In this document: piece by piece, positions 5,992-29,067 of the stretch
How positions within the stretch are numbered: the first letter of the stretch is position 1
Layout: each line of letters opens with the position of its first letter
Assembly: GCF_001936595.1 (NCBI RefSeq)
Contig: NZ_MLBG01000034.1
Location: 1-36,129 of the forward strand
Reading direction: 5' to 3'
From: Desulfovibrio sp. DV
GTDB taxonomy: Bacteria > Desulfobacterota > Desulfovibrionia > Desulfovibrionales > Desulfovibrionaceae
Length of the DNA stretch: 36,129 nucleotides
The notes under the pieces: generated by a model
What the model saw: only the letters and a program-made list of their open reading frames with translations
The model's database searches: none
Told to the model about the DNA's origin: nothing
Made by a program: the position numbers and the translations under genes

Positions 5992-6753
5992 TCAGGGCGT
6001 TTTTATGCCGAGCAGGCGCAGCAGCCCGTCGAGGATGGTCAGGGGATGGGGCGGACAGCCAGGGATGAACAGGTCAACCGGCAGATGGGGCGTGGCCCCG
6101 CCGGTGGTTTCCGGGTTTCCGGCAAAGAGCCCGCCGGAGATGGCGCAGGCGCCGATGGCGATGGCCACCCGGGGATCGGGCACGGCCTCGAAGGTGGCCA
6201 GCGTGGCGGCCCGCATGTTTTGCGGCACCGGGCCGGTCACGGCCACGCCGTCGGCGTGGCGCGGCGAGGCCACGAAATCGATGCCGAAGCGGCCAAGATC
6301 AAAGACCACCGTGGTCAGCACGTTGGTGTCGGCCTCGCAGGCGTTGCAGCCCCCGGCGCTGATCTGGCGCAGCCGCAGGGACCGGGAAAAGAGTTTCAAG
6401 CGGGCCGGCTCAAGCGGAGTCACCGTCGGGCGCGTGCCTGGACGCAGCACCAGCCCCGCCCGGGTGCTCGACGCCAGCCGATGGTCCTGGGAAAAGGCCA
6501 CCCGCCGGCCCGGACAGGCTGCGGCGCAGGCCCCGCACAGGATGCAGCGGCCCAGGTCAAGGAAAAGGCCGGCCTCGTCGGCTCCGAGCGCCCCGGTCGG
6601 ACATACCCCGGCGCAGGATGGGCAGCCGGTGGCGCAGGGCGAATCGGAAAGGACCGGCAACCCCCGATAGCGCGGCGGCAGGGGCGGCATTTCCCGGGGG
6701 AAGGCCACGGTGCGGTGGCCCTGGCGCAGGCGTTCAAGCAGGATATGGAGCAT
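5992..6753 (-). CDS. Fused ferredoxin-NuoB-like subunit of Ehr complex (HyfH/HyfI-like)
   Basis: 253 residues combining two proteins that are separate in hydrogenase-4 and complex I. Residues 40-80 hold two [4Fe-4S] motifs: Cys40/44/47/51 (irregular CxxxCxxCxxxC) and Cys70/73/76/80 (CxxCxxCxxxCP). Residues about 118-250 are a NuoB/HyfI domain with all four ligands of the terminal cluster (N2 position): Cys136 and Cys139 (GGCNACE), Cys203 (IGACAISGG) and Cys233 (PGCPPHP). The predicted role is to carry electrons from a soluble donor to the centre between this subunit and the large subunit. It is the last gene of the operon, 11 bp after the large-subunit stop. The ribosome binding site is weak, so translation is probably coupled. 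Confidence 0.88.
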   Translation of the reverse strand: MLHILLERLRQGHRTVAFPREMPPLPPRYRGLPVLSDSPCATGCPSCAGVCPTGALGADEAGLFLDLGRCILCGACAAACPGRRVAFSQDHRLASSTRAGLVLRPGTRPTVTPLEPARLKLFSRSLRLRQISAGGCNACEADTNVLTTVVFDLGRFGIDFVASPRHADGVAVTGPVPQNMRAATLATFEAVPDPRVAIAIGACAISGGLFAGNPETTGGATPHLPVDLFIPGCPPHPLTILDGLLRLLGIKTP

Positions 6754-6764
6754 TCTCGGGCGTC

Positions 6765-8249
6765 CTAGAGGTCATGGCCGCAATACGACAGGTTGAAACT
6801 CTTGTTGCACATCGGGAAATCGGAGATCTGCTGGCCGCGAAGGGCCAGGGCCAGTCCGAACCAGTTGTGAAACGACGGATCGACGATCTTGTAGGCGGCA
6901 AATCGGCCGTCCGGGCCGGTTGCGGCCACGTGGCAGATCTCGCCGCGCCAGCCCTCGACCAGTCCCACGGCCAGGGTGTCCGGGGGAAATGTGGCCGGCA
7001 GGGCTCGGTTGACCGGTCCGGGGGGCAGATCGGCCAGGGTGGCGTCGATGAAATCAAGCGACGCCTCCATCTCCAGGCGGCGCACCAGGGTGCGGGCGTA
7101 GACGCCGCCGAAATCGTGAATCTGCATGGGAATGTCCTTGGCCCCGGCCCCGGACAGGGGAAAGGAGTGGCGGGCGTCGCGGGGCAGGCCGCAGGCCCTG
7201 GCCGGCGGGCCGACCAGCCCGATGTCCCGGGCGGCCTCCGAGGTCAGCCGGCCCGTGCCCTCGAACCGGGCCAGGGCCGAGGACGAGGAAAAAAGCAGCT
7301 CGGCGGCTCCGAAGGCGGCCCGGCGGGTGGCTTCCAGACGGGTGTCGAGGAGGCGCAGGACGGCCTCGTCGAGGTCAAAGGCCGTGCCGCCGGGCCGCAC
7401 GAGACCCCGGCCGAAGCGGTTGCCGCATAGAAGGGCCGTCAGGTTTAAAAAATCGCCCCGGATGCGGCCGCAAAAGGCCATGGTCGGCTGGTAGCCCACG
7501 TCGCCGGCCAGGGCCCCGAGGTCGCCGGTATGGTTGGCCAGCCGCTCCAGCTCCAGGGCCACGCGGCCGATGGCCCGTCCCCTGGCCGGGGCGGCCACGC
7601 CGGCCAGGGTCTCGAGCACGGCGGCATGGGCCAGGGAGTGGCCGATGGTGGTGTCGCCGGCGGCTGTCTCCATGAAATGCACGGTGCGCCGGTCCGGGCC
7701 GCCGACCAGCGCGGCCTCGATGCCCCGGTGCTGGAATCCCAGGCTGATCTCCAGATGCAGGACTTCCTCGCCGAAACACTGGAACCGGAAATGGCCGGGT
7801 TCGATGATGCCGGCGTGGACCGGTCCCACGGCCACCTCGTGGACATCCTCGCCGCGCACCTGGAAATAGTCGGTCACGCCCGGACCCGGGCGGGGCAGGT
7901 CGGGCCGGCCGGGCGTGCCGGTAAAGCGCACCGGCTTGAGCCAGGGGTGGCCTTCGGGCACGACGCCCCACTGCTCATACAGCTCGCGCTCGAAGAGATG
8001 GCACTGGGGGCACTCGGGGGTAAGCGACACGTAGGCCAGGGTCGGCTCGGCGCGCAGGAACGCCAGCCGGCCGTCGCGGTCGCGGCCAAGCAGGCAGACC
8101 GGTTCCGGGATGTCGTCGCCGGGCAGGGCAAAAAGAGCCAGCACCCGCCAGCCGGCAGCCACCCGGGTGAGCACGTCCTGGCGAAACCGGGCCAGGGGCA
8201 GCCGGGGCGCCTCGGCCAGGGCAATGGCTTGGTTGTAAGGAAATTCCAT
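6765..8249 (-). CDS. NiFe-hydrogenase-like large subunit lacking NiFe ligands (HyfG/HycE-like, Ehr type)
   Basis: 494 residues: an N-terminal NuoC-like domain (FERELYEQWGVVPEGHP, residues about 86-102) fused to a NuoD-like domain (VGPVHAGIIEPGHFRF at 141-156, EISLGFQHRGIE). In group 4 [NiFe] hydrogenases the metal site needs two CxxC motifs. Here the first position reads METAAGDTTIGHS (193-205) with no cysteine. The second, at the extreme C-terminus, reads DFPMCNKSFNLSYCGHDL, with Cys481 and Cys490 eight residues apart. This matches the energy-converting hydrogenase-related (Ehr) class, not an active hydrogenase. An extra CPQC (80-83) precedes the ERE motif. GGGAGG upstream supports ATG at 8249; the preceding stop is 3 bp away. 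Confidence 0.9.
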   Translation of the reverse strand: MEFPYNQAIALAEAPRLPLARFRQDVLTRVAAGWRVLALFALPGDDIPEPVCLLGRDRDGRLAFLRAEPTLAYVSLTPECPQCHLFERELYEQWGVVPEGHPWLKPVRFTGTPGRPDLPRPGPGVTDYFQVRGEDVHEVAVGPVHAGIIEPGHFRFQCFGEEVLHLEISLGFQHRGIEAALVGGPDRRTVHFMETAAGDTTIGHSLAHAAVLETLAGVAAPARGRAIGRVALELERLANHTGDLGALAGDVGYQPTMAFCGRIRGDFLNLTALLCGNRFGRGLVRPGGTAFDLDEAVLRLLDTRLEATRRAAFGAAELLFSSSSALARFEGTGRLTSEAARDIGLVGPPARACGLPRDARHSFPLSGAGAKDIPMQIHDFGGVYARTLVRRLEMEASLDFIDATLADLPPGPVNRALPATFPPDTLAVGLVEGWRGEICHVAATGPDGRFAAYKIVDPSFHNWFGLALALRGQQISDFPMCNKSFNLSYCGHDL

Positions 8250-8252
8250 GGC

Positions 8253-9728
8253 CTAGCCTCCCAGGGAAATGGCGGCGGCCGCGCGGGTCAAAAGCGCTAC
8301 GAGGCCGCCGGGCAGATACAGGCCCAAAACCAGGGTGGCGGCCAAAAGGACCAGGGGCGGGCCGACGGCCAGCAGGCGTTCCGGGCCGGGATGGGGCACG
8401 GCCGGGGGCAGCGGCCCCTGGACCATGCGGCACACCGAGGTGGCCATGCCGACGAAGATGACGGTCAGGGCGGCCAGATAGATGACCGGGGCCAGGATGC
8501 GCCCGCTTTCCAGCATGGCCTGCAAAATGGTCAGTTCGCTGACGAACATGCCAAAGGGCGGCGAGCCGACAATGGCCAGAAAGCCGGCCATCCACAGGGC
8601 GGCGGTGATGGGCAGGGCCCGGGAGACGCCCCGGGCGTCGTGGCAGGAGCGGGTGTGGTACACGGCCAGGATGTTGCCGGAAATGAGAAACAGCGCACCC
8701 TTGGTCAGGGAGTGGTTGACGGCGTGGAGCATGGCCCCGAAGGTCGCGCCGCCGCCGATGCCGACGCCAAGGGCCAGGATGCCCATGTGCTCGACGCTGG
8801 AATAGGCCAGCATCCGCTTGTAGTCGCCCTGGCCGACGATGAAGACGGCGGCCGTGCCCATGGAGACCAGTCCGAACATGACGAGCAACTCGCCGCAAAA
8901 TTCACCCATGCCGGCGGCGGTCAGCACCTGCCCGGCCCGCAGGATGCCGAGAAAGGCGCAGTTTAAAAGCGCCCCGGAAAGCAGGGCCGAAACCAGGGAC
9001 GGCGACTGGCTGTGGGCATCGGGCAGCCAGTTGTGCATGGGGGCCAGACCCATTTTCGAGCCGTAGCCGACCAGCAGGAAAATAAAGGCCGCCCGCAGCC
9101 AGGGCTTGGCCGCAGCTCCGGCCCGGGGGAGCATTTCATCCAGGCCCATGGATGAAACCGGACTGATCGGATCGAAAAAAGCCACGGAAACCAGGATATT
9201 GCCAAGCAGGGCCAGGGCGATGCCCACGGAACAGATAAGCAGGTATTTCCAGGTGGCTTCCAGGGAGCGGCGGTGGCGGTGGAAATAAATGAGCGGGGCG
9301 CTGGACAGGGTGGTGGCCTCGATGCCCACCCACAGGACCGAGAGGTTGCGGGTGGCGCACACCACGGTCATGGCCGACAGGAACAGGCACAGGCACATGG
9401 AAAACACCCGCTCCGGGGCGTTTGAAAAGGCGGCGCCGTCCTGGAAATCGCGTTTGGGGCCGGCGTCCTCGTGGCTTAAGTAGCCGGCGGCGTAGAAGGC
9501 GGCAGCCACGAAGAGCAGGCTGGCCAGGGACAGGAACAGCTGGCCCGGGGCGTCGAGTTCGAGCAGGCCGCCGTAGGCCGGGGCCGGCGGGACGAAATAG
9601 GTGGCTGCGGTCAGGGCCGCATGGATAAGGCCCGTGACCACCAGGAGCAGCCGGCGGGGAGCGTCGGCGCGAAGGGCCAGGGCGAGCAGGCCTGCCAGCA
9701 GGGGAACAAGGGGGAGGGCAACAAGCAT
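8253..9728 (-). CDS. Antiporter-like membrane subunit of Ehr complex (HyfF/NuoN-like)
   Basis: 491 residues, about 14 hydrophobic segments, proton_antipo_M family. The charged residues expected of a proton channel are present: Glu in LWVGIEATTL, Lys in YGSKMGLAPMHNWLPDAHS, and a second Lys in VNHSLTKGALFL. Histidines occur in the same helices. The NWLPDAHSQSPS loop is typical of HyfF and MrpA/D-like subunits. Start ATG at 9728 lies 6 bp after the previous stop, with a poor Shine-Dalgarno sequence, suggesting translational coupling. It should sit in the inner membrane and translocate H+ or Na+ when the peripheral arm moves electrons. Confidence 0.9.
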   Translation of the reverse strand: MLVALPLVPLLAGLLALALRADAPRRLLLVVTGLIHAALTAATYFVPPAPAYGGLLELDAPGQLFLSLASLLFVAAAFYAAGYLSHEDAGPKRDFQDGAAFSNAPERVFSMCLCLFLSAMTVVCATRNLSVLWVGIEATTLSSAPLIYFHRHRRSLEATWKYLLICSVGIALALLGNILVSVAFFDPISPVSSMGLDEMLPRAGAAAKPWLRAAFIFLLVGYGSKMGLAPMHNWLPDAHSQSPSLVSALLSGALLNCAFLGILRAGQVLTAAGMGEFCGELLVMFGLVSMGTAAVFIVGQGDYKRMLAYSSVEHMGILALGVGIGGGATFGAMLHAVNHSLTKGALFLISGNILAVYHTRSCHDARGVSRALPITAALWMAGFLAIVGSPPFGMFVSELTILQAMLESGRILAPVIYLAALTVIFVGMATSVCRMVQGPLPPAVPHPGPERLLAVGPPLVLLAATLVLGLYLPGGLVALLTRAAAAISLGG

Positions 9729-9734
9729 AGGGGG

Positions 9735-10376
9735 CTAGTCCCGCAAGGAGCAAAACCGTCCGACGTCGATGGACTCGAAGGTTTTATTGATATGGTGCAG
9801 GGCGATGCCCATGACAAAGACGGCCACGAACACGTCAAGAAGGACCGACAGTTCCAGCCAGACCGAACCCTGGGCGGACAGGGGCACGCCGAGGAGGAAA
9901 ATGCCGTTTTCCGCAGCCAGATAGCCGATGACCTGGGTCAGCGCCTTGCGCCGGGCCACCACCAGGGCCAGCCCGGAAAAGATCGAGGTCAGGGCGGCCG
10001 GGAAGAGCAGCGGCGGGAAAAGCCCCGGCGGAAAGGGCAGCCGGGTTTCCAACCACAGGGAAAAGAGCAGCCCGGCCACGCCGGCCAGGAGCGACACGTT
10101 AAAGCCCAGATACGGCTCCACCACCGGGTTGACTTCCAGTCGGGAGAGGGTGCGGGCCAGCAGCCAGGGAAAGCCGATGCCCTTGATGGCCAGTACGCCC
10201 AGGGCCAGGGTGGTGGCGTGGCCGTGGGGATCCTGGCCAAGGACGGCCAGGGGGGCGGCGGCCAGGAGGATGCCCTGGACGGCGGTGATGCGGGTGAGCG
10301 AGCGCAGGCGGGTCACGGCCAGATAGGCCAGATTGACGCACACCAGGGCCACCATCAGCGTTTGGGTCATGTCCAC
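9735..10376 (-). CDS. HyfE-like membrane subunit of Ehr complex
   Basis: 213 residues, six to seven hydrophobic segments. The segment VIGYLAAENGIFLLG with its buried Glu is the NuoK/MrpC-like signature of HyfE proteins. GTG at 10376 is preferred because GGAGGT lies 6 nt upstream; ATG two codons later (10370) would also serve. The upstream stop is 4 bp away. Confidence 0.88.
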   Translation of the reverse strand: MDMTQTLMVALVCVNLAYLAVTRLRSLTRITAVQGILLAAAPLAVLGQDPHGHATTLALGVLAIKGIGFPWLLARTLSRLEVNPVVEPYLGFNVSLLAGVAGLLFSLWLETRLPFPPGLFPPLLFPAALTSIFSGLALVVARRKALTQVIGYLAAENGIFLLGVPLSAQGSVWLELSVLLDVFVAVFVMGIALHHINKTFESIDVGRFCSLRD

Positions 10377-10380
10377 GCGG

Positions 10381-11280
10381 CTACCTCCACACCGTCAGCA
10401 CCAGGGACAGGGCGGCCAGGGTCCCGGCGGCTCCGAGCAGGCGCGGCACGCGGATGAGCCGCAGCCGGGCCATGGATGATTCGACCAGGCCGACGGCTAT
10501 GGCCACGACGGCCAGGCCGGCCAGAAACACGGCCCAGCCGGCGACCGGCGGCATGGCCCGGACCGGCAGGACGCTTAAGACTGTGGCGGCGGCGAAAAAC
10601 CAGAGCTTGAGCGAAGAGCCGTAGACAATGGCGGCCATGTCCGGGCCGCTGTGGTCAAGGACCATGACCTCGTGGATCATGGTCAACTCCAGGTGGGTAT
10701 TGGGGTCATCCACCGGGATGCGGCAGTTTTCGGTCAAAAGCAGGATGAACAGGATCACCGGCACGAACAGTCGTTCCGGGGCCAGGGAGCCGGTCAGTCC
10801 CCGGCCGAGCATCCCGGACAGGGAGATGTCCGGCGCATCGGCGGCCAGGGCCAGCAGGCACAGAAACAGCACCGGTTCGGCCAGGGCGGAAAAGGCGGCC
10901 TCGCGGCTGGCCCCCATGCCCTCGAAGCTCGACCCGCTGTCCAGGGCGGCCAGGATCAGGGCCAGCCGGCCAAGGCCCAGGCAGTAGGCGGCCAGAATGA
11001 AGTCGCCGGTAAAGGCGGCTGGCGAGGGCCCGGCCGGTCCGGGCAACAGGGTCAGGGCAATGGCGGCCGTGGCCAGGGAAACCACCGGGCCAAGGGGCAG
11101 CATCCAGCTGGACGTCTCGCTTTCCACCACGCCCTTTTGCACCAGCCGGGCCAGATCGAAATAGGTCTGGAACAGGGGCCGGCCGACCCGGCCGGACAGG
11201 CGGGCCTTGACGCGGTTTATTATCCCCGGCAGCAGCGGGGCCAGAAGCAGGGCGGCCAGGAGATGGGCGAGGGCATCCAT
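10381..11280 (-). CDS. NuoH/HyfC-like membrane subunit of Ehr complex
   Basis: 299 residues with about eight hydrophobic segments. It carries the NuoH-family markers GRVGRPLFQTYFDLARLVQK near residue 30 and ENCRIPVDDPNTHLELTM, then HEVMVLDHSGPD, around residue 200. This acidic loop forms the contact between membrane and peripheral arms in complex I and group 4 hydrogenases. Start ATG at 11280 is 4 bp after the HyfB-like stop. Confidence 0.92.
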   Translation of the reverse strand: MDALAHLLAALLLAPLLPGIINRVKARLSGRVGRPLFQTYFDLARLVQKGVVESETSSWMLPLGPVVSLATAAIALTLLPGPAGPSPAAFTGDFILAAYCLGLGRLALILAALDSGSSFEGMGASREAAFSALAEPVLFLCLLALAADAPDISLSGMLGRGLTGSLAPERLFVPVILFILLLTENCRIPVDDPNTHLELTMIHEVMVLDHSGPDMAAIVYGSSLKLWFFAAATVLSVLPVRAMPPVAGWAVFLAGLAVVAIAVGLVESSMARLRLIRVPRLLGAAGTLAALSLVLTVWR

Positions 11281-11284
11281 GGTG

Positions 11285-13279
11285 TTACAGCTTCCAGGCC
11301 AACAGCAGGACGACTGTGGCCAGAACGTAGAGGATGTAGAGATGCACCCGACCGTGCTGCACCACCTTAAGCGCGTCGCAGCCCCGGGCGATGGCCTCGA
11401 AAAGCGGCGTGAAAAACCGGCTGCGGATGACGTCGGGGCTGGTGACGAACAGTTGGGCCCGCTTGGGGAACAACCCCGGATCCATGTCCAGGCGGCGGGT
11501 CAGCCCCATGGGTTGGCCAAGGATCTGGGACGTGGGTTCGACAAAGGAGGCGGCTCCGTACTGCACCCGGGCGGTGCCGGCGGTGTAGCCGCAGCCCCAG
11601 GTGGGGCCGCGCCGCCGGCCGTGGGCGGCGATGAGCAGCCGGCGCAGCCACAATAGGACGAGGCTTAGGACCACGATGCCGGCCGAATACAGGCTTACGG
11701 TTCGGGCAATGGCGCAGGCTCCGGCCAGGGCGGTCCGGGCCGGGGCCGGGTCCATGCCCGGAAAGGCCAGGGCGGCCTGCCCGGCCAGACCCAGCAGACC
11801 CGGGGCCAGGGTTGCGGCCAACAGCAGGCAGCCGGCCAGAAAGAGGATGGGGACCAGGGCCGGCCCGGCCGGGGACGCGGCCTTGGCTGCCGCCGGGGTG
11901 CGGGGCTGGCCGAGGAAGGCCAGTCCGCCGGCCTTGGCAAAGGCGGCCAGGGCAAAGCCGCCCACGGCAGCCAGGGCGGTCAGGGCGGCGGCCATGCCCA
12001 CCCGGGGAAGCAGGCCGGGCAGATCGACGCCGGTTAAAATGGCCAGGGCCAGGACCAGTTCGCCAAGAAAGCCCGGCAGGGGCGGCAGTCCGGCAATGCC
12101 GGCGGCGGCCAGGAAAAACGCCCCGCCAACCACCGGCAGGCGTTTGGCCAGACCGCCCAGATGGGCGATGCGCATACTGCCAACGGCAGCCAGGACCTCG
12201 CCGACGCACAGAAACAACAGCCCCTTGAAGCCGGCGTGGCACAGCATGTGGAACACGGCTCCGGAAAAGCCGAGCACGGCCATGGCATCGTTGCCGCTGG
12301 CCCGTCCGATAAGCCCCAGGCCCAGGCCCAGGCAGACCAACCCCATGTTTTCCACGCTGGAATAGGCCAAAAGCCGCTTGAGATTGCCTTGGGCCAGGGC
12401 GCGCAGGATGCCGTACAGGGCGCTTGCCAGCCCCAGGGCGGCCAGCAGCCAGCCCTGCCAGAGGGCGGGCGGGCCAAGCAGCTCGAGGGTGCGCCACAGG
12501 CCGTAGATGCCGACGTTGATCATGCCCCCGGCCATGACGGCGGTGACGTGGCTCGGGGCGGCGGCATAGACGTCGGGCAGCCAGACATGGAAGGGAATGA
12601 GGCCGACCTTGGCGGCAAACCCGACCAGGGCCAGGAGGAACAGGAGGGTCGGCGCGGTCAGCCGGCCGGCGCTGGCGGCGGCGGCAATGGCCTCGAAGCT
12701 GCTCCCGCCGGCCTGTCCCATGGCCAGGGTGAAAAAGGCGATGAGGCAGACGGCACCGATGTGGGCGGCCACGAGGTAGAGCCAGGCGGCCTCGCGTACG
12801 TCGGCTTCGTCGTCGTGCAGGCTGATGAGGAAAAACGGGGCCAGGGACATGATTTCCCAGGCGATCAGGAACAGCACGCCGTCCCTGGCGGCCATGACCA
12901 GGGACAGGCCAAACAGCAGAATATTGAAGCAGAACCAGTGGGGGCCGCGCCGGTCGCCCCCGGCGTGGGCGGCCTCGTGGCCGGCCAGATGCAGGCTGCC
13001 GGAGACGGCTGCGGCCGCGCCCAGGATATACACGGGCAGGAGAAACAGGCGGGTGGTCGGATCGAGGCCCAGGGAAAACGCGCCAAGGGGCAGGCCCCAG
13101 GGCAGGCTGAGGGTGGAAACGGCGCTGACCGGCGCGCCCAACACCCCGGCCAGTCCGGCCAGGGAGCCGGCGACGGCAGCAGCCGGAGCCAGACGATTGG
13201 CCGCCTCGCGTCCCCCGAAAACCAGGGCGCACAGGGCGCCAAGCAGATAGCAGGCAAGCGAGAGCCCGAACAATTCCAT
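11285..13279 (-). CDS. Antiporter-like membrane subunit of Ehr complex (HyfB-like), first gene of operon
   Basis: 664 residues. The antiporter core includes FLIAWEIMSLAPFFL (key Glu) and GFAAKVGLIPFHVWLPDVYA (key Lys), plus HAGFKGLLFL. A C-terminal extension (about residues 540-640) ends with GCGYTAGTARVQYGAASFVEP, as in HyfB/HycC, and a final membrane helix. ATG at 13279 has AAAGGG 9 nt upstream, whereas the TTG three codons earlier (13288) would abut that site. No HyfD (second NuoL-like) gene follows, so this operon has two antiporter-like subunits (this one and HyfF-like), not three as in E. coli Hyf. Confidence 0.9.
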   Translation of the reverse strand: MELFGLSLACYLLGALCALVFGGREAANRLAPAAAVAGSLAGLAGVLGAPVSAVSTLSLPWGLPLGAFSLGLDPTTRLFLLPVYILGAAAAVSGSLHLAGHEAAHAGGDRRGPHWFCFNILLFGLSLVMAARDGVLFLIAWEIMSLAPFFLISLHDDEADVREAAWLYLVAAHIGAVCLIAFFTLAMGQAGGSSFEAIAAAASAGRLTAPTLLFLLALVGFAAKVGLIPFHVWLPDVYAAAPSHVTAVMAGGMINVGIYGLWRTLELLGPPALWQGWLLAALGLASALYGILRALAQGNLKRLLAYSSVENMGLVCLGLGLGLIGRASGNDAMAVLGFSGAVFHMLCHAGFKGLLFLCVGEVLAAVGSMRIAHLGGLAKRLPVVGGAFFLAAAGIAGLPPLPGFLGELVLALAILTGVDLPGLLPRVGMAAALTALAAVGGFALAAFAKAGGLAFLGQPRTPAAAKAASPAGPALVPILFLAGCLLLAATLAPGLLGLAGQAALAFPGMDPAPARTALAGACAIARTVSLYSAGIVVLSLVLLWLRRLLIAAHGRRRGPTWGCGYTAGTARVQYGAASFVEPTSQILGQPMGLTRRLDMDPGLFPKRAQLFVTSPDVIRSRFFTPLFEAIARGCDALKVVQHGRVHLYILYVLATVVLLLAWKL

Positions 13280-13353
13280 GAGCGACAACCCTTTGTTTGG
13301 GGCCGCCGTCTGTATCCGGCCGGTCCCAATAGCCGGAAAAACATCCGAAAAGG

Positions 13354-13405: not shown

Positions 13406-14944
13406 TTACTGGTCCAGATGCATCCGGGTCATGGAGGTACGCAGGTCCGAGGCCAGATGGGCCAGATCGGACACGGCGGACGAGGCCACGGCCATGGCTC
13501 CGGCGGTGGACTCGGCAATGGTGTTGATGTGGTCGGTTGAGCGGTTGATCTCTTCGGAGGTGGCGGACTGCTGCTCGGCGGCGGTGGCGATGCCGCGCAC
13601 CTGGTCCGAGGTGCGTTCCACGAAATTGAGGATCTGGCGCAGGGCGTCGCCGGCATCGTGGGCCAGGGTGTCGGCCTGTTCGATGACGTGGGTGGTCTCG
13701 TCGGTGGCGGCAATGTTGCGTCCGGCGCTGTCCTGGATGGCGCGGATGAAGCTGCTGACCTCTTTGGTGGCGGTCATGGTCTTCTCGGCCAGTTTGCGGA
13801 CCTCGTCGGCCACGACGGCAAAACCGCGTCCGGCTTCGCCGGCCCGGGCGGCCTCGATGGCGGCATTGAGGGCCAGCAGGTTGGTCTGGTCGGCGATATC
13901 GGAGATGACCTGCATGATCTGGCCGATGCCCTGGGCCTGTTCGCCGAGGTCGCGCATTTCCGATTTGAGGCTGGTGGCCTTGGTGTTGACCGATTCCATG
14001 ACGTTTATGACCTGATCCACCAGATTGGCCCCGGTGGCGGCCATGGAATTGGCCTGCCCGGCCGTGGCGGCGGCGTCGCCGGCGTTTCTGGCCACCTCGA
14101 GAATGGTGGCGTTCATTTCCTCGATGGCGGCGGCCACCTCGGTGGTGCGGGCGCGCTGTTCTTCCATGCCCTGGGTGGATTGGCTGATCTGGGCGGTCAT
14201 GTGCTCGGCCGCTTCGGCCAGACTCTCGGCCACGGCAGTGGCTTCCTTGACGCCGTTGGCAATGCGGTGGTTCTGCTCGGTGATGGTGCGTTCCTTGAGC
14301 ACGACACCGGTAAAGTCGGCCACGGAAATAAAGCCGCCGATAAGCGTGTTGTCGAAATCCATGATGGGTGTGGCAAAGATACTGATGAACTTGTGGTTGC
14401 CTTTGCGAGTATCGAATTCCGTCTTGGAGGACTGTTTCTGGCGCGTCCGTATGGCTGTCTCGCCGATAGTTTCCCGGGAGTCGCCGTAGAAGAAATTGGA
14501 GAAATGTTTGCCGATAAACTGCTGCGGCGTACCGTCGTTTTCCGTCAGGCGCACCATGTACTCGTTGAGCCAGGTGATGTTGCCCTTGTGGTCGACAATG
14601 GCCATGGGCGTGATGATGTTGGCCAGCATGGCCTCATCCCGGCTCAGGCGTTCCTTGAGCGCCGCTTCGTGGGGGAGGAGCGTTTCCCGCAGAGCCGCCA
14701 CAGAGAGCAAGGCGTTGTCCGTCAGGGAGCAGTCGAATCTATTCGACGCGATGGCGGCAAATGTCTCTGTAACCTGGGTGAAGGTTGTTTCCACGCAATT
14801 TTTGGTCAAGAGGAGAAAAACGGTGGTGCACAGAAACGAGGCAGCCAGCAGACTATAGGCGATCGGACCGTCGCCGGCCAGGGCGCTGCCCGCCAGCAGC
14901 AGGGCGTTGCCAATGAGAACAGTAATCAATGGAAATGGCTTCAT
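13406..14944 (-). CDS. Methyl-accepting chemotaxis protein with PAS domain
   Basis: 512 residues. Two closely spaced membrane segments near the N-terminus (about residues 4-22 and 27-46) leave almost no periplasmic loop. A PAS domain follows ([22 protein letters not shown], starting LANIITPM, roughly 105-225), so sensing is probably cytoplasmic or of the membrane/redox state. The C-terminal MCP signalling domain contains [20 protein letters not shown] (hairpin tip) and [23 protein letters not shown] at 14944 is supported by GGAGGG 4 nt upstream; the frame continues open to 15037 without a better site. It should signal through CheA/CheW; neither is encoded here. Confidence 0.92.
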
Positions 14945-15229
14945 AAGTCCCTCCGACCCCTTTCGGTGCGGCTGCGTCACGATAGAATGGGGAGTGCGTA
15001 ACGCAATGCCCCCCAAAGCGCAACTCATCCGTCGCAAACAGGCGCGCCGGTATTGGATAAACCGAGGTTTCTGCGTTGTTCAAAGAAACAGAGGAGAGAA
15101 TACTGGCGGTCGGGAAGAACAAACGACGGCCCCGGCGACGCGGCAGCGCGTCAGGCCGGGGCTTTGGGCTGGCGGGTGCGGGGCTGCAGTGCGGTCCTGC
15201 GTTTCACAGAGCCGTTGCAGTGCCGCGGG
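14945..15229. other. Intergenic region between the chemoreceptor and radical SAM genes
   Basis: 285 bp with no credible gene. It holds the compound hairpin at 15130-15161, which would end the upstream minus-strand gene, and a weak promoter candidate for the chemoreceptor: TTGAAC (complement of 15078-15083) then TTATCC after 17 nt. Confidence 0.4.
15130..15161 (-). terminator. Compound GC hairpin, probable terminator of the radical SAM fusion gene
   Basis: Outer arms CCCCGGC (15130-15136) and GCCGGGG (15155-15161) enclose inner arms GACGCG (15137-15142) and CGCGTC (15147-15152) around a GCAG loop, with a 2-nt bulge. On the minus strand it is followed by GTCGTTTGTTCTT, only moderately T-rich. 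Confidence 0.55.
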
Positions 15230-17611
15230 TCACGGCATGGAGGGCGACAGATTCAGTGGGGTCAGTGCCTCGTGGTTCGGAAGCTTTTGCAGCAGTTCGG
15301 CCACTTCCTGCCCGGCAGCCGGGCCGCAGCAGCACGAGGTCCCGCCGGCCGTGAAATCCGGATTGGCGATATTGCCTCGCTGGTCAAGGACCAGCAGGGC
15401 GTGCCCGGCCAGATCCTCTTCGTAAAGGACGATGGTGCGCACCTCGCCGGCCCGCAGCACGTCGCCCGAGGCCGTGACCACGGCCCGGAACGGCCCCCGG
15501 TAGAGCACCTTGCGCCGGGGCGGCAGGCCAAGCGGTTTCCTGGCCTCCACGGTGACGGAATAAAAGTCGTGGCCGCCCACCACCCGGTAGGGGAAGCGCC
15601 GGATGATGCGCACGGCGGTAAAGCCCGACTCTTCCAGGATGGCGAAGAGGTCGCGCTGGGTCAGCGTCCCGGAGATGCACTCGCCGCGAAGGGTGGGATC
15701 ATTGCAGATGGCGGCGGCCGCCGGGGTTTCGGTGGCCACGTCGGAAAAGACGATGCGCCCGCCGGGTTTCAAGATGCGAAAGATTTCGGCGTAGAGCCGG
15801 CGTTTACGGGTGGAGAGGTTGAGCACGCAATTGGAGGTGATGCAGTCGGCAGTGGCCTCGGCCAGGGGCAGGGCTTCGAGATAGCCCTGGAAAAAGACGG
15901 CGTTGGCGTAGCCGAGCACTTCGGCCGTGGCGGCAGCCGCCCGGGTGGCCCGGGACAGCATGGCCGGGAGCATGTCGATGCCGATGGCCCGGCCGTGTGG
16001 CCCCACCTGCCGGGCGGCGATCAGGCATTCCACCCCGGCCCCGCAGCCGAGGTCCACCACGGTCTCGCCGGCGACAAGGCCGGCGTCGGCAATGGGCGAA
16101 CCGCAGCCGTAGCCGCGCACCCGGTAAAATTCCGGAATATGTTCGACCATTTCCAAGGGATAGCGCACGGGATTGACGATGTCGCCTTTCTCCACGGCCG
16201 CCGCCTCGGTGTAGAAATCCTTGATGTGCCCCAGGCTCGACTGGCCGGCAATGGACAGCAGGCAGTTGGTGTGGGCCAGGGCCACCTCGCCGTGGGCGTG
16301 GCAACTCTCGTGGGTCTCGCCCATTTTAAGGCGCAGTCCCGGCCGGTCGGGGCGGGCGTTGGGTACGGCCTCGGCCTCGCGCCGGATCATCCAGGCGGCC
16401 AGGCGTTCACGCAGGGGCAGATACGGGTCGGCACCGTCAAAGCGGCCGCTGTGCCGCCAGGCATGGTCCGGGTCGCCGCCGCCAAGGACCAGCCGCCAGG
16501 GCGAGTCGGCGTTGGCGCTGGTGGTGCGGCGCAGGGCGTCCAGGGCCGGGCTTGTCTTCCAGGCCGTTTCCAGGCCGCCGGCCGCGTCGTCGATGGCCGT
16601 GGCCAGGGCGGCCTCGCCAATGAGGGCCGGGCTGGGATAGAGCCGGTCGTCCGGCCCCACGGCCACGGATTCCCAGCCGGCCGTGGCCCCGTCATGGCGG
16701 GTGGCGGCCGGGGAAAAGACCTGGCTGGCCAGGGCGGCCAGATTGTCGATGGCGATGCCGGCCGCTTCGGCCCGGGCAGCCGCTTCGGTGACCGCGGCAA
16801 ACAGGGCGTCGTCGGTTGGCCGGTCGTCATCCCGGCCGCGACCGGCCGCAAAATGCCACATGAAATGGAGGCCGGCCGCGCCGATGTCTGCCGCCAGATC
16901 GACCATGGCCGGCAGGTCGCCGACATTGGCCGTGGTGGGGCAAAAAGACAGGGTGAGGCCGAAGCCGAGTTTTTGAGCCACGCCCAGATCGACGCCCAGG
17001 CGGGCAAAGGCGCCGGGGCCGCGCATGGCGTCGTGGCGCGGGGCCAGCCCGTCGCAACTCACCTGGAAATGCACCCGGTGCCGGGGCCAGTCGGCCAGGA
17101 GCGCGGCGTGGTCGGTAAAGCCCGTGCCATTGGTCAGGATGACCACATGGCTGTCCGGGACGGCCAGGGCGGCGGCCACGATGGAGCCAAGTTCCGGGTG
17201 GCAGAAGGGTTCGCCGCCGGTCAGGGCATAGACCCGGCAGCCCAGGGCGGCGGCCTCCCGGATGCGGCCCACGGCGGTCTGCCCCGAAAGCTCCAGGGCG
17301 GCGGCCGGTCCGGAGCAGAACAGGCAGTGGCGGCAGGCCAGATTGCAGCGGTCGGTCAGGTGCAGCCACAGTTCGCCCAGGCGGCCGAGGTCCAGGGCGG
17401 CGTGGCGGCCGGCGTAGGGCGTGGCCCGGGCTGCCGGCAGGCGCGACAGGAAGAGCGCCTCTTCGCAGCCGGCCGGCTGGCCGGCGGCCACACGGCCAAG
17501 GACGGCGTCGGCCGCGGCATTGGGCACAAACCAGTCCGGGCCCTGGGGATAGAGATACACGGCGGATTCGCCGACAGGCACACGGGTCCAGCAGGCTGGG
17601 TCAAACGACAT
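15230..17611 (-). CDS. Radical SAM - ArsM-like methyltransferase fusion protein
   Basis: 793 residues with no gene name I recognise. Residues about 15-60 ([20 protein letters not shown]) look PqqD-like. A radical SAM domain starts at about 80: Cys89/93/96 ([10 protein letters not shown]) bind the 4Fe-4S cluster, and TGGEPF lies at 131-136. A middle region (to about 480) has [14 protein letters not shown] in a SPASM-like position without its cysteines, and [17 protein letters not shown]. Residues about 490-700 are a class I SAM methyltransferase closest in layout to arsenite methyltransferase Ars[53 protein letters not shown]. The cysteines in GCGSP and ECISG occupy places where ArsM has arsenic-binding cysteines. 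The tail carries GGTSCCCG (about 756-763). ATG at 17611 is preceded by AAAAGGGA. An arsenic- or thiol-substrate role is inference. Confidence 0.8.
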
Positions 17612-18180: not shown

Positions 18181-18687
18181 ATGATCGAACCGTGCCCCTG
18201 TGCCAGCGGCGCTGCCTACGCAGACTGCTGCGGTCCCCTGCTTTCCGGCAAACGCCGGGCCGAAACGGCCGAGGCGCTCATGCGCTCGCGCTACACGGCT
18301 TATGTGCGAAGCGACGCCGTCTACCTCGAACGCACGCTGTTGCCGCGAAAGCGCGTGGGCTTTGACGCCGCCGCCTTGCTGGCCTGGAACGCCCAGACGG
18401 CCTGGACTGGCCTGCGCATCCTGGCCACCAGCCAGGGCGGGGCAGCGGACGAGACCGGGGTGGTGGAATTCGTCGCCTCCTATGTCCGGGACGAAACCCC
18501 GGAAGATGTCCATGAGGTCAGCCGATTTCGCAAAAAAGGCGGCGTCTGGTTCTACGTCGACGGCCACCTCGATGACGACCCCGAGGTTCCCGCCCCGTCC
18601 GTGGCCGACGACGGCACCCCGCTTCCCGGGCGAAACGCCCTGTGCCCCTGTGGCAGCGGCAAGAAATACAAGCGCTGCTGCGGCTGA
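18181..18687 (+). CDS. ychJ: YchJ-family (UPF0225) protein with two SEC-C motifs
   Basis: 168 residues. A zinc-binding SEC-C motif stands at each end: PCPCASGAAYADCCGP (residues 4-19) and LCPCGSGKKYKRCCG at the C-terminus. The central domain begins with RAETAEALMRSRYTAYVRSD, the usual YchJ signature (NTF2-like fold). AAGGATG upstream supports the ATG at 18181. The next gene starts 1 bp after the stop, so the pair is translationally linked. SEC-C motifs bind zinc and often SecB or the ribosome; the cellular role of YchJ is not established. Confidence 0.92.
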   Translation: MIEPCPCASGAAYADCCGPLLSGKRRAETAEALMRSRYTAYVRSDAVYLERTLLPRKRVGFDAAALLAWNAQTAWTGLRILATSQGGAADETGVVEFVASYVRDETPEDVHEVSRFRKKGGVWFYVDGHLDDDPEVPAPSVADDGTPLPGRNALCPCGSGKKYKRCCG

Positions 18688-20283: not shown

Positions 20284-23200
20284 TCAGCGGACATCCACCT
20301 CGACGTAGTGTTCCTGGCGGTCGTCCGCCAACGGGATGAGGCCCTGGGCGGCCCCGCTGGCGTCCCGGGCGACGCTGGCCATGTCTGCGCCGTCAAGGCG
20401 CACCCGCAGGCCCGGTTCTGGCTGGTCCTGGCTGCGCCTGACCGTGATGTGGTAGACGGTGTCGCGGTGGCGGTAGTGGATTTTGTAGGAATCCCAGTGG
20501 GGCGGCAGGCAGGGCGCGATGCGCAGGCGGTCCACCTCCAGGGTGAGCCCGAGCAGCGTTTCCACGGTCAGCCGGTACATCCAGCCCGCCGCCCCGGTGT
20601 ACCAGGTCCAGCCGCCCCGGCCGGTATGGGGCGGTGCGGCGTAGAGGTCGGCGCTCATGACATAGGGCTCGACCTTGTAACGGGCGACTTTCTCCGGGCT
20701 GTCCCCGTGGGCCACGGGACTGAGCAGGGCGAACAGTTCCCAGGCCCGTTCCCGCTCGCCAAGCCGGGCCAGGGCCATGGCCGCCCAGATGGCGGCATGG
20801 GTGTATTGCCCGCCGTTTTCCCGCACCCCGGGCACGTAGCCCTTGATGTAGCCCGGCTCCAGGCTTGAGGTGTCAAAGGGCGGGGCCAGCAGTTTGACCA
20901 GTCCGTCATTTCGGGACACCAGCCGCTGGTCCACAGCGGCCATGGCCTGGCGGGACCGGCCGGGATCGCCGCCGCCCGAAAGGACGGACCAGCTCTGGCT
21001 GATGGAGTCGATCTGGCATTCCTCGTTTTCCGCCGAGCCAAGCGGCGTGCCGTCGTCGAAGTAGGCCCGGCGGTACCAGTCGCCGTCCCAGGCCTGCCCC
21101 TCGATGTTGCCGCGCAGCAGGGACGCCTGGCCGACACAGGTTTCGGCCAGGAGGACATCCCCCCGGCGGCGGGCCAGCTCGGCAAAGAGGGTGAGGTTTT
21201 CGTAGAGGAAAAAGGCCAGCCAGACGCTTTCGCCCCGGCCTTCCCGGCCGACCAGATTCATGCCGTCGTTCCAGTCGCCGCAACCCATAAGCGGCAGGCC
21301 GTGCGTGCCAAACCGCAGCCCGTGCCGGATGGCCCGGGCGCAGTGCTCATACAGGCTGGCCGTTTCCGACGAACGCTGGGGCAGGTCGTAGTAGGCCTCC
21401 TCGTTGGGGTCGAGTTCGCGGCCTTCCAGGAAGGCCACCGGCTCATCGAGGACGCCGGTGTCGCCGGTGGTCAGCACGTAGCGGCTGGCGGCATAGGGGA
21501 GCCACAGGTAGTCGTCGGAGAAATGGGTACGCACGCCCTGGCCGTTGGGCGGATGCCACCAATGTTGCACGTCGCCCTGGAGAAACTGGCGTCCGGCGCA
21601 CAACAGGAGCTGTTCGCGGGCAAGGCCGGGGGCGGCGTGGACCAGGGCCATGGTGTCCTGCAACTGGTCACGGAAGCCGTAGGCCCCGCCGGACTGGTAA
21701 TAGCCGCTTCGCCCCCATAGACGGCACGACAGCGTCTGGTAGACGAGCCAGCCGTTGGCCAGCACGTCCAGGGCCGGGTCCGGGGTTTCCACGTTGACCG
21801 CGCCAAGGGTCCGGTTCCAGTGTTCCCAGACCCCTTCCAGGGCCTGGCGCGCGCCGGCCGGGCCGCCGAACCGCTCGATAAAGTACCGGGCCTCGTCATT
21901 GTCCCTTGCCGCGCCAAGGAGAAACACCACCTCGCGTTCCTCGCCCTCGGCCAGTTCGATCCGGGTCTGCAGGGCGGCGCAGGGGTCCAGCCCGGCCCCG
22001 GTATTGCCCGACAGCTGCTTGCGGCCCAAGGCGGCCGGGCTGGCCTGGGACCCGTTTCGGCCGAGGAACTCGGTCCGGTTGCCGGTCACCGACCGCTCGG
22101 TTTCGCTGACCTGGGCAAAGACGACGCGGCCGCCGCATTCCCGGCCATAGGCGTTTCGGGCAAAGAGCGCCCCGGTGAGCGGGTCTTTTTCGGTCACGAT
22201 GTGCAGCAGGTTGGCGTGCCGCCATTCCCCGAGCACCAGTTCGAAGTAGCCGGTCAGGGACAGGCGGCGCGCATGCCTGGAATGGTTGCGCAGTTTGACC
22301 ACCACGAATTTGACCGGCGCGTCCATGGCCACATAGACGGAGAGTTCCGAGGAGATGCCGGTTTCGTCATGCTCAAAGACGCTGTAGCCAAATCCGTGGC
22401 GGCACACCGTCCCGGACCGGCCAAGGGCCGGGAGGCCCGTTGGCGACCAGAAGGCCCCGGTGGCCTCGTCGCGCAGATAGAAGGCCTCGCCGCTCACGTC
22501 GCCGACCGGGTCGTTGTGCCAGGCGGTCAGGCGGAACTCGTGGGCGTTTCCCGCCCAGGTGTAGGCGCTGCCGCACTCGCTGACCACCGTGCCGATATGG
22601 GGGCTGGCGATGACGTTGGCCCAGGGCGCGGGCGTGGTCTGGCCGGGCTCCAGGGTCGTGACGTATTCGCGGCCGTCGGGCGTAAAGCCGCCCAGGCCGT
22701 TTTCAAAGATGCGCGAGCGCGCCGCCAGCGGCCAGACCGGTTCGACCGTCTGCCTTGGCGGGATGTCCAGGCGCTCGGGCAGACGCCGGACCGGGGCGCG
22801 TCGTTCCACCTGTTCGGCCAGGGTCTCGGCGGAATCGGTCACGATGACCCGGGCCACGGTCTGGAAGAGCACCCGGTCCTCTTCCGAGAGTTCCTCGGCC
22901 CGGCGCACGAAGATGCCGCCCGGGGTATCCAGGGCCGCCGCTTCCGGGCCGGCCTGGACAAGTCCCAGGATCCGGTCGTGCAGCACGGCCCGGTAGCCTG
23001 AGAAATCCTCGTTGATGATCACCAGGTCCGAGGCCAGGCCCTTCATCCGCCAATAGGCGTGGGCCTGGAGCATCTGCCGGACCAGATCGACGCGGTCAAT
23101 GTCGCCGATGCGCACCAGGATGATCGGCAGATCGCCGGAGACGGCAAAGCGCCACAGGCCCGACTGACCCAGCTGGTTGCGGGCGATGACGCTTGGCGCG

Positions 23201-26200
23201 GCCCGGCGCAGGCCGTTGCCGAAGACCACCGAGGTGGCCAGTCGGCCGTAGACCTGGGCGTCGACTTCGGTTGCGCCGAGACGCCGCAGCACTTCCTGGC
23301 TCTGGAACCAGGCCATTTCAAAGGCGCGCTCCACAAAGTGCCGGTCGCCGTATTTTTCGATCACGGCCAGGGCCGCTTCGCGCGTGTCGGCCACGCCCGA
23401 GATGATCTGCACCGTGGCCGAGGCGTCCGGGGGCAGGGTGATGGTGCGGCGGATGGACACGATGGGGTCAAGGACCGAACCGTCGGTGCCGGACAGGGTG
23501 GCCGGGCCATCGCCGGCCTCCAGGGCCAGGGGATTGGCCGGGGTGCGGCCCCGGCCGATGAAGGCGGCCCGGTCGGTCTCAAAGGACGGGGAGCCGGCGT
23601 CCACGCCCGGGGCGGCAAACAGATGAAACAGCCAGGGGGTGCGTTCGTCTGGCGTCCGCCGCCGGCGGGTGCACAGGATGGCTTGCCGGTCGGGCAGGAT
23701 TTCGGTCCGGACAAACAGGTTGCTGAAGGCCCGGTGGGCCAGATCGGCGTTATGCGGGGCCAGGACGACCTCGGCATAGCTGGTCATCTCGATATGCCGG
23801 GTGCGCGAGGACAGATTGGCCAGGGTGACCCGCCGGATCTCGACGTCGTCTTCCGGGGAAACACTCAGTTCGGTGTGGGTTTCGATGGCCTGGTCCTGGC
23901 GTCGGTATTCGGCCCGGGCCTGGCCAAAGGCCGCTTCGTAGGATTCGGCCGGGCGCAGGGTCGGCTGGTGGGCGGTTGACCAGTAACGGCCGGTGTCGGC
24001 ATCGCGCAGATAGATAAACGTGCCCCAGGCGTCGCAGGTGGCGTCTTCGCGCCAGCGGGTGACGGCCAGGTCCTGCCAGCGGCTGTAGCCGCCGCCGGCG
24101 CTGGTGGCCATGACATGGTAGCGGCCGTTGGAGAGCAGGTGGACCTCGGGCAGGAGCGTATCGGGCTTGGTGAAGACACGCATGATCGAGCCTGATTCCG
24201 CCACCGGGGGATGGGCGCTGGCGCTGACCTCGGCGGCATGGGGATTGAGCGTGGCCCCGTCTTTGGGCACACGTTCCTCAAGCAGCGACTGGGTCGCCCG
24301 GACAAAGGGGAAGGACATGAAGCGCCGCTGCATGGGCTCCCCAAGCAGGACCTGGACAAAGGACAACAGGCTCATGCCCTGGTGGTGGGCCATAAAGGCG
24401 CGCACCACGGCGTGGTGTTTCCCCCGGGGAACCCGGGCGGGGGTGTAGTCCACGGCCTCGTAAAAGCCCTGCCGGCCGAGGAACCCTTCGGCGGACAGCC
24501 GTTCCAGGTTGCGGCAGGCTTCCCCGGGGGCCACCAGCAAGGCCAGGGCGCTGGCATAGGGCGCGATGACCAGATCGTCGCCAAGGCCCCGCTTGAATCC
24601 CAGCCCCGGCACGCCAAAGGCCCGGTATTGGTAGGCCTGGTTGAGGTCCACGGCATTGTAGCAGGATTCGGAAATGCCCCAGGGCACGGCCCGTTGCCGG
24701 CCGTATTCGATCTGGCGCGACACGGCGGCCCGGCAGGTCTGGTCGAGCAGGGTGTTGGCGTAGCTTGGCATGACCAGTTGGGGCATGAGGTACTCAAACA
24801 TCGACCCGCTCCAGGAGATGAGGCTCGGATCGCCGCCATGGCTGGTCAACAGCCGGCCCAGGGAAAACCAGTGCTTTTGCGGGGCCTGGCCTTCGGCAAT
24901 GAGCAAAAAGCTGGTCAGCCGGGCTTCCGAGGCGAGCAGGTCGTAGCAGGACGGATCGCGGCGGCGCTCGCCCACGTCGTAGCCGATGGCCAGCAGGTCG
25001 CGCGTGGTGTCGTAGAGGAATTCGAAATCCATGGCCGCCAGCTCCCGACAGCGGCACAGCAGGTCGTCGATGTGGCCAAGCCGGGCAATGGCGGCCGTTG
25101 CCCGGGGCACGGCCGGGGCGGTGCCGCCTCCGGGGGCCGGTGTGTGGGCCGCGTCCTCCCGGGCCAGGGCGGAGAGCGTCGGGTTGTCGCTGCGCCGGGC
25201 CGGATCGGGGCAAAGCAGATGCAGGTCTTCCCGCAGGGCGCGCACCTGCCCGTCAAAGGCCCGGACCCAGTAGGCCAGTTCGCCGGCTGCCCCGGCGTCC
25301 GTTGGCAGATCGGCCAGCAGGGCGGCGCTTTGGCCGCCAAGGTCGGCCAGGAGCGTCTCGGCCGTGGCCAGCGAGCGCACCGGGCCGTTGTCGCAACAGG
25401 TTCTGAGCCTGTCGCGCAACTGCCCGATCTGCCGGGCCAGTTCCCCGGCGCGGGCGCTTGGGGCCTGTTCGGCCAGCACGCCCAGAGTATCTTCCAGTCC
25501 GCGAATCGCGGCCGGCGAAAGCACCGGCTGCTCCTTCACCTCGGCCAGCCCGGCCTGCAAGGTGAGCAGACAGCCGGCCAGATTGCCGCTGTCCACGGTG
25601 GAGACGTATTGCGGCCGCAGGGGGGCGAGCGTCCGGGTGTCGTACCAGTTGTAGAAATGGCCCCGGTAGCGGGTCAGCTTTTCCATGGCCGTCAGGGTGT
25701 TTTCCGTGCGCGAAAGGAACTCCCCGGCGCACAGATAGCCGAAATCATAGGCCGCCTGATTGGCCAGCAAGGCCATGCCGATGTTGGTCGGCGAGGTCCG
25801 CGAGGCCAGCATGGCGGTCGGGTATTCCTGGAAATTGTCCGGCGGCAGCCAGTTGTCCAGCGGTCCGACAAAGTCGGCGAAATAGCGCCAGGTGCGCCGG
25901 GCCATGCCGCGCAGAAAGATCCGTTGGTCAAGGGTCAAAACCTGCTTCGGGGCGGCCAGGGGGCGGCTTAACCACCAGGCGGCCGCCGGCGCGAGCAGCC
26001 ACAGGAGCAGGATCGGCGCGCAGGCCGGCAGGCCCGCCGGCCGCCCGAAGGCCAGGGCCAGGGCCAGGGTCGCGGCCAGGGCCGGAGCAAACCACATCTC
26101 CATGACAAAATCGGCCAGGGTGCAGCGGGCGTTTCGCCGGGCATAGGCCGGTCCGTGCCACAGGAGCAGGCCGCGCCGGGTGAACAGCATCCGCAGGCCC

Positions 26201-28962: not shown

Positions 28963-29067
28963 GATGGTTTCCTTGATCGAATCCGGGACCCGAAGCGCCA
29001 CTGATTCCTCATGTATGCTGGCAAAGAGCGTTGGCCGGCGGTGTTGGCCGAAAAACCGTTTCAGGAG

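Follow-up and report, generated by a model that had tools for sequence, protein, structure and literature searches.

Algae and cyanobacteria, with a few other organisms, are the main known sources of complex organoarsenicals. In arsenosugar synthesis, ArsM methylates arsenite and a second protein, the radical S-adenosylmethionine (SAM) enzyme ArsS, adds a 5'-deoxyadenosyl group. In arsinothricin biosynthesis, ArsM is paired with another radical SAM enzyme, ArsL. Passages of PMC12159101 describe radical SAM enzymes that adenosylate arsenic (oxo-arsenosugar) or transfer a 3-amino-3-carboxypropyl radical to it (arsinothricin), and passages of PMC8552651 describe arsinothricin as the product of arsQML. 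Here, we analyse a gene in which an ArsM-like methyltransferase is fused behind a radical SAM enzyme in a single chain of 793 amino acids. It lies at positions 15230..17611 (minus strand) of a 36,129-nucleotide contig of Desulfovibrio sp. DV (NZ_MLBG01000034.1, assembly GCF_001936595.1), the whole of which we call the window. We consider it somewhat probable that the fusion is a single-chain replacement for ArsM and ArsS, methylating arsenic and then adenosylating it in a presumed radical step, because part of the family shares gene neighbours with ArsS and the two nearly exclude each other among genomes. We found no prior description of such a fusion, nor any paper naming DUF5714 (a domain of most longer relatives), in the open-access literature searched, most subscription papers lying outside that search.

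The fused gene and its ArsM-like half

The fusion is a real gene, not a chance open reading frame (ORF), since full-length or near-full-length relatives (E 5e-216 or lower) are present in 30 of the 297 genomes of its class. These comprise all 12 genomes of the same genus (with the source genome among them), a further 17 from one other genus and one from a third; in one genome of the class sample (G282), the relative is split across two contigs. The ORF runs from an ATG at 17611, which aligns with the start of relatives and has a Shine-Dalgarno-like AAAAGGGAC upstream (by eye), to a last sense codon at 15233-15235 and a stop at 15230-15232. Query residues 1-494 (A1), run against genomes of 84,980 species, returned 74 fusion loci, most of them in metagenome-assembled genomes. 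Going by their labels, they belong mostly to Desulfuromonadales and other deltaproteobacterial groups, with some labelled Acidobacteria, Planctomycetes, Fibrobacterota and Myxococcales; the matches at 65-77% identity are Solidesulfovibrio. Conservation was counted in an alignment (A2) of the window protein and 53 of these 74 loci (n = 54).

Pfam recognises both halves of the protein: Radical_SAM (PF04055) at residues 85-200 (E 1.7e-13) and Methyltransf_31 at 514-661 (E 3.5e-28). An AlphaFold2 model built from a 54-sequence alignment has a mean predicted local distance difference test score (pLDDT) of 87.5 and a predicted template modelling score of 0.87, and the sole segment below a pLDDT of 50 is residues 753-793. 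The radical SAM core (residues 76-300; 16712..17386, minus) is delimited by the Pfam match and by the folds of CteB, anSMEcpe and PqqE. Its CxxxCxxC motif (residues 89-96; 17324..17347, minus) is predicted to bind a [4Fe-4S] cluster, and C89, C93 and C96, whose codons were checked, are each invariant in 54/54 rows. An earlier note, made from the sequence alone, had described a single 793-residue frame with this motif, methyltransferase motifs and a GGTSCCCG ending; all of these are present.

The C-terminal half is ArsM-like, with a complete predicted As(III)-binding cysteine triad. The methyltransferase domain (residues 481-690; 15542..16171, minus) is supported by Pfam, NCBIfam, phmmer and fold comparison. 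The best NCBIfam match is arsenite methyltransferase PRK11873 (NF008823; residues 478-676, 192.8 bits), and phmmer aligns residues 497-675 with crystallised CmArsM (E 6e-34). Counted along the printed phmmer alignment, Cys72, Cys174 and Cys224 of CmArsM map onto C503 (16103..16105), C595 (15827..15829) and C645 (15677..15679), all on the minus strand and with codons checked. PDB entry 5eg5, titled C72A, has alanine at the first triad place, which agrees with the alignment register. All three cysteines are invariant in 54/54 rows, among them a row from Vicinamibacteria with 36% identity, so the arsenic idea is not refuted on the ground named in the earlier note, a methyltransferase half without the ArsM cysteines. 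The ArsM fold expected of this half was likewise found: ArsM 4fr0 superposes on model residues 481..732 with Z 27.1 and a root-mean-square deviation of 2.0 Å over 217 residues (37% identity). The superposition extends into a C-terminal beta domain of the ArsM type (YRGPFR...; residues 691-752; 15356..15541, minus), where the ArsM alignment reaches residue 732.

The fusion thus shares with ArsM (CmArsM 4fr0/4kw7, CrArsM 5evj, NF008823) the class I fold, the beta domain, the Cys72/174/224 equivalents and the SAM motif, but its methyltransferase stands behind a radical SAM enzyme. The CmArsM alignment begins after the position of Cys44, the fourth cysteine. The linker ahead of the methyltransferase (residues 416-480; 16172..16366, minus) holds two further cysteines, C437 and C450, each invariant in 54/54 rows; their equivalence to Cys44 is only putative. 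Compared with the stand-alone ArsM of its own genome (L002/L128), the fusion is without the cysteine-rich N-terminal segment and has C437 and C450 in the linker instead. Several fused selenoproteins (NF041536, ArsM-DUF2284; NF041537, ArsM-AhpD; NF047649) also join an ArsM-like domain to a second domain, but there is no radical SAM domain in their names, and their models give 113-123 bits on the fusion against cut-offs of 460-575.

Relation to ArsS and the proposed chemistry

ArsS (TIGR04167) and the fusion both have a CxxxCxxC radical SAM core. ArsS mostly occurs as a stand-alone protein of ~320 aa, whose gene has an in-frame TGA in some genomes; the single ArsS that was read throughout (from L118) has neither the N-terminal head of the fusion nor a fused methyltransferase. 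The two largely exclude each other among genomes. In the order of genome G306, the fusion is present in 42/136 genomes and ArsS in 56/136 (53 over cut-off), and two genomes have both where 17.3 are expected (Fisher p 7e-10, a value that ignores ancestry and comes from genomes of unstated completeness). Along the listing order of that set, the two labels switch repeatedly, although this order may not reflect kinship. Across the class, 30/297 genomes have the fusion and 36/297 have ArsS (35 over cut-off), with none having both against 3.6 expected (p 0.017, again ignoring ancestry). As a separate observation, three genomes from the order of G306 (G373, G379 and G415) have two fusion matches each, the second at ~530-540 bits and perhaps a paralogue with another role.

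Part of each family also shares its neighbours. Partner genes were counted as the best tblastn match per locus (E up to 1e-8) in the available flanks of the 74 loci, 19 of which are shorter than 7 kb. TIGR04282 was found at 10/74 loci and TIGR04283 at 9/74 (either or both at 12/74), a VTT/TVP38 membrane protein gene at 19/74, a MerA-like flavin adenine dinucleotide oxidoreductase gene at 8/74 and DUF3047 at 5/74; any of the five occurs at 26/74. Nearly all lie on the same strand as the fusion (9/10, 8/9, 18/19, 7/8 and 5/5, respectively). With matches ending beyond 4 kb as an internal control, the two glycosyltransferases TIGR04282 and TIGR04283 together gave 13 matches in 233 kb at 0-2 kb, six in 182 kb at 2-4 kb and none in 226 kb at 4-8 kb. 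The NCBIfam models of both pass their curated cut-offs in 5/5 representatives scanned; weak matches occur at L091 (95 and 103 bits), L043 (117 bits, at a contig end) and L070 (129 and 160 bits). Glycosyltransferase-bearing loci fall in separate tree branches, including a deep one (L104, L106, L108).

The same partner genes flank ArsS at six of 12 inspected loci (L129, L130, L135, L138, L139 and L140), a sample that was partly preselected, the linkage of four of the six having been known in advance. The genes shared by parts of both families are TIGR04282/83, VTT/TVP38 and the MerA-like gene, the last of which flanks ArsS at L129, L135 and L140. According to the match lists, at least 10 of the class's 36 genomes with ArsS have TIGR04283 within 5 kb of it; for the order of G306, the figures are 4/42 with the fusion and 1/56 with ArsS. 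Overall, the genome evidence favours the arsenic reading.

If the fusion replaces ArsM and ArsS, its ArsM-like half would bind As(III) through C503, C595 and C645, a site predicted from sequence, and would methylate it with SAM. The methylated arsenic would then move to the neighbouring radical SAM half, where a single [4Fe-4S] cluster on C89, C93 and C96 would cleave SAM and place a 5'-deoxyadenosyl group on arsenic, a step suggested by gene context and by the exclusion of ArsS. The product would be an adenosyl-dimethylarsenical, a precursor of arsenosugars. Speculatively, C437, C450 and the cysteine tail may retain or reduce arsenic on its way from one site to the other. The radical SAM half would be a non-orthologous replacement of ArsS, since it is maturase-like and not ArsS by sequence. 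Were this chemistry correct, anaerobic sediment bacteria would have evolved a route of their own to compounds of the arsenosugar type, and this route would be undercounted by surveys based on ArsS only. In one natural chain, polar methylation would then be combined with radical adenosylation at a single metalloid atom.

A number of observations weigh against this reading. The methyltransferase half misses the curated cut-off of ArsM PRK11873 (192.8 against 263 bits). The radical SAM half looks maturase-like. By genus, the three fusion genera and 12 ArsS genera of the class (of 53) do not overlap where ~0.7 shared genera are expected, so exclusion at this level is not significant; ArsS and the fusion do coexist in 4/50 fusion genomes from the species scan and in 2/42 from the order of G306. 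None of the five partner genes was found at 48/74 loci, where the neighbours are uninformative as to whether homologues sit consistently in unrelated pathways. There is no partner gene in the window, and among the matches listed, none of the 30 fusion genomes of the class has TIGR04283 within 5 kb of the fusion. In a Desulfobulbaceae branch (L097, L098, L100, L102 and L107), a RadA-like gene stands in place of the partners (by eye). Presence of TIGR04283 in a genome is a weak marker, since it is widespread: it is over cut-off in 102/136 genomes of the order of G306, and in the class it occurs in 30/30 fusion genomes and 32/36 ArsS genomes but also in 72/231 with neither. The NCBIfam "arsenosugar biosynthesis" names of TIGR04282 and TIGR04283 are presumably partly context-based.

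Searches of the flanks for arsenic genes also count on this side. Neither ACR3 nor a stand-alone ArsM was found in the available flanks of the 74 loci, where the one ArsR-like match, at L067, is weak, and a classical ars operon beside the fusion was accordingly rejected. Finally, the organism's own genome carries ACR3 (454 bits, cut-off 283) close to a stand-alone ArsM (343.5 bits, cut-off 263) on another contig (L128, C8:40000-56000), and the fusion is hence not the only source of arsenic methylation. On a third contig, TIGR04282 (169 bits, cut-off 134) adjoins TIGR04283 (223 bits, cut-off 182). Possible pathway partners are therefore present in the genome but unlinked to the fusion. The earlier note's idea that one protein could perform both the ArsM and ArsS steps is supported independently by the neighbours that part of the family shares with ArsS and by the near exclusion. 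The L128 locus also has an ArsR-type regulator and a TtrA/ArrA-like molybdoenzyme, the latter below the TtrA/ArrA cut-offs, and the cluster might be a distinct locus for arsenic or tetrathionate respiration.

Alternatives for the radical SAM half

Within arsenic chemistry, the strongest alternative is a different radical transfer of the kind that occurs in arsinothricin biosynthesis: the ArsM half would methylate arsenic and the radical SAM half would transfer a non-adenosyl group, such as 3-amino-3-carboxypropyl. Both kinds of transfer are ascribed to radical SAM enzymes in the passages of PMC12159101. The radical SAM half is rejected as an ArsS orthologue, since it scores 41.2 bits with TIGR04167 (cut-off 300), a match confined to residues 77-218; a comparison with one ArsS gave 26.9% identity over 160 aa (E 1.4e-7). 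The half also has no conserved SPASM cysteines, and the end of the fusion weakly matches the C-terminus of the arsinothricin ArsM (E 0.0015). The ArsL/ArsM pair likewise builds C-As bonds with ArsM and a radical SAM enzyme, but as two separate proteins with a different product; ArsL is not among the best 25 of 51 NCBIfam matches for the radical SAM half. Arsenosugar-type glycosyltransferases are the informative neighbours, and it is ArsS that the fusion nearly excludes; both points favour the ArsS product and leave a different radical product rather unlikely.

Outside arsenic chemistry, the strongest alternative is a maturase-like role, in which the head would bind a peptide or a protein for modification by the radical SAM half, and the ArsM-like half would methylate the product or a bound metalloid. 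As modelled, the N-terminal half is shaped like a maturase with a RiPP (ribosomally synthesized and post-translationally modified peptide) recognition element (RRE), a radical SAM core and a SPASM region, though one without conserved SPASM cysteines. Its best radical SAM fold matches are sactipeptide and other RiPP maturases: residues 6-414 superpose on the sactipeptide maturase CteB (5why/5wgg) with Z 28.4, and parts of the half superpose on anSMEcpe, SuiB, SkfB and PqqE. The head (residues 1-75; 17387..17611, minus), with a conserved PxWFVPN, is conserved among relatives. The model gives residues 9-57 the order strand-strand-strand-helix-helix, as expected of an RRE. The PqqD-like head of the earlier note rests on this modelled topology and on the CteB alignment, and profiles gave it no match: Pfam PqqD matched 0/32 member heads, and a profile of the heads had no match among PDB sequences at E up to 1.

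Against a maturase, the SPASM-like region (residues 301-415; 16367..16711, minus), whose fold aligns with SPASM maturases up to 414-416, lacks the auxiliary-cluster cysteines, no column between 298 and 425 having more than 5 Cys of 54, and the ArsM triad is invariant. The head is not always kept, as the divergent members L108 and L110 match only from query residues 47 and 54 onward. No recurrent precursor-like ORF of 20-90 aa was found within 2.5 kb of 54 loci, a test that shorter or more distant ORFs fall outside; of 12 short-ORF clusters inspected, the largest span 4-5 loci and by eye look like shadows of neighbouring genes. This limited test gave no support to a RiPP precursor beside the fusion. 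Compared with CteB, SkfB and PqqE, the fusion thus has neither conserved SPASM cysteines nor a recurrent precursor-like ORF and is joined to a methyltransferase. The thiol or peptide substrate that had been offered as an alternative lives on through the maturase-like fold, yet we regard a maturase as distinctly improbable. It is more improbable still that the same architecture acts on another soft element (Sb, Se, Te or Hg) or a small thiol, its arsenic link merely inherited from the ArsM fold: MerA-like genes recur beside the fusion and no arsenic efflux gene was found there, but the three arsenite-binding cysteines are kept throughout and the MerA-like gene flanks ArsS too.

The tail, DUF5714 and the surroundings of the gene

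The low-confidence tail (residues 753-793; 15233..15355, minus) contains CCC at 760-762. It had been suggested that this motif binds the metalloid. A fixed trithiol site is rejected, as CCC occurs in only 18/54 members and CxC in 41/54; the last cysteine alone is well kept (52/54). A selenocysteine version of the tail was also rejected: the long frames have no TGA at the tail and run on to a first stop beyond the DUF5714 part or, in Solidesulfovibrio, at the gene end. L110, L042, L095 and L105 are exceptions to this stop position; the frames of the last three stop early, and L042 and L105 contain Ns. L110 (604-2838) is a divergent member from Vicinamibacteria, and its frame closes with a TGA immediately after ...APGCC.

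In most long relatives (~1000 aa), DUF5714 (PF18978) follows the tail. It passes the Pfam cut-off in 4/5 relatives scanned, and a C[MLIV][VIML]C[GS] motif marks the start of the region in 48/50 long ORFs. Pfam finds no DUF5714 in the window protein, and the domain is absent from the entire genome in 14/14 genomes of the window's genus. A tail shared within the genus, LLxK...L.PFNLAPP, follows CCC in its place (15233-15290, minus). Because this genus nests inside DUF5714-bearing branches of the midpoint-rooted tree, loss of the domain is the simplest reading.

DUF5714 is modelled with a pLDDT of 90; across 47 rows, 33 of its columns are invariant, including 14 Cys and 3 His. Its best VIA match is PrpD (Z 5.3), and Foldseek gave no match at E 0.001 or better, which is not proof of a new fold. 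In most relatives, this cysteine-rich domain may add a further step. We put forward only tentatively the fuller picture of a one-protein factory for C-As bonds, in which an ArsM domain and a maturase-like radical SAM domain of non-ArsS descent would act in turn on a single arsenic atom passed between them, first methylating and then adenosylating it, while DUF5714 would be another domain that handles arsenic. Arsenosugar-type chemistry would in that case be a trait of anaerobes that reduce sulfate and metals, and ArsS surveys would overlook it. The neighbours of stand-alone DUF5714 proteins (L112, L114 and L115) gave no clue to its role; at L115 (1456-3419), the protein adjoins an ORF that by eye resembles a PaaK-type adenylating enzyme.

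Queries for TIGR04282/83, VTT/TVP38, MerA-like, DUF3047, Hdr-like, ArsS, ACR3, ArsR and ArsM proteins against the whole window matched the fusion alone, in keeping with the earlier note, which saw no ars operon gene beside it. Seven window ORFs were scanned, and the near neighbours are a methyl-accepting chemotaxis protein (13406-15037), a YchJ/SEC-C protein (18181-18687) and complex-I-like genes, which together are a further point against the arsenic reading. Another genome of the genus (L131) shows the same order by eye. The genes at 5992-13288 (minus) resemble complex I or hydrogenase-4, with 49-kDa, 20-kDa, NADHdh and antiporter-type subunits, and some of them also come after the fusion and the chemotaxis gene in L131 (by eye). 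A conserved small membrane protein gene precedes the fusion at six Desulfobulbaceae loci (L097, L098, L100, L102, L103 and L107; by eye). Elsewhere in the window, a 2905-aa ORF at 20284-29001 (minus) is by eye similar to cyclic beta-glucan synthetases, with glycosyltransferase and phosphorylase-like parts.

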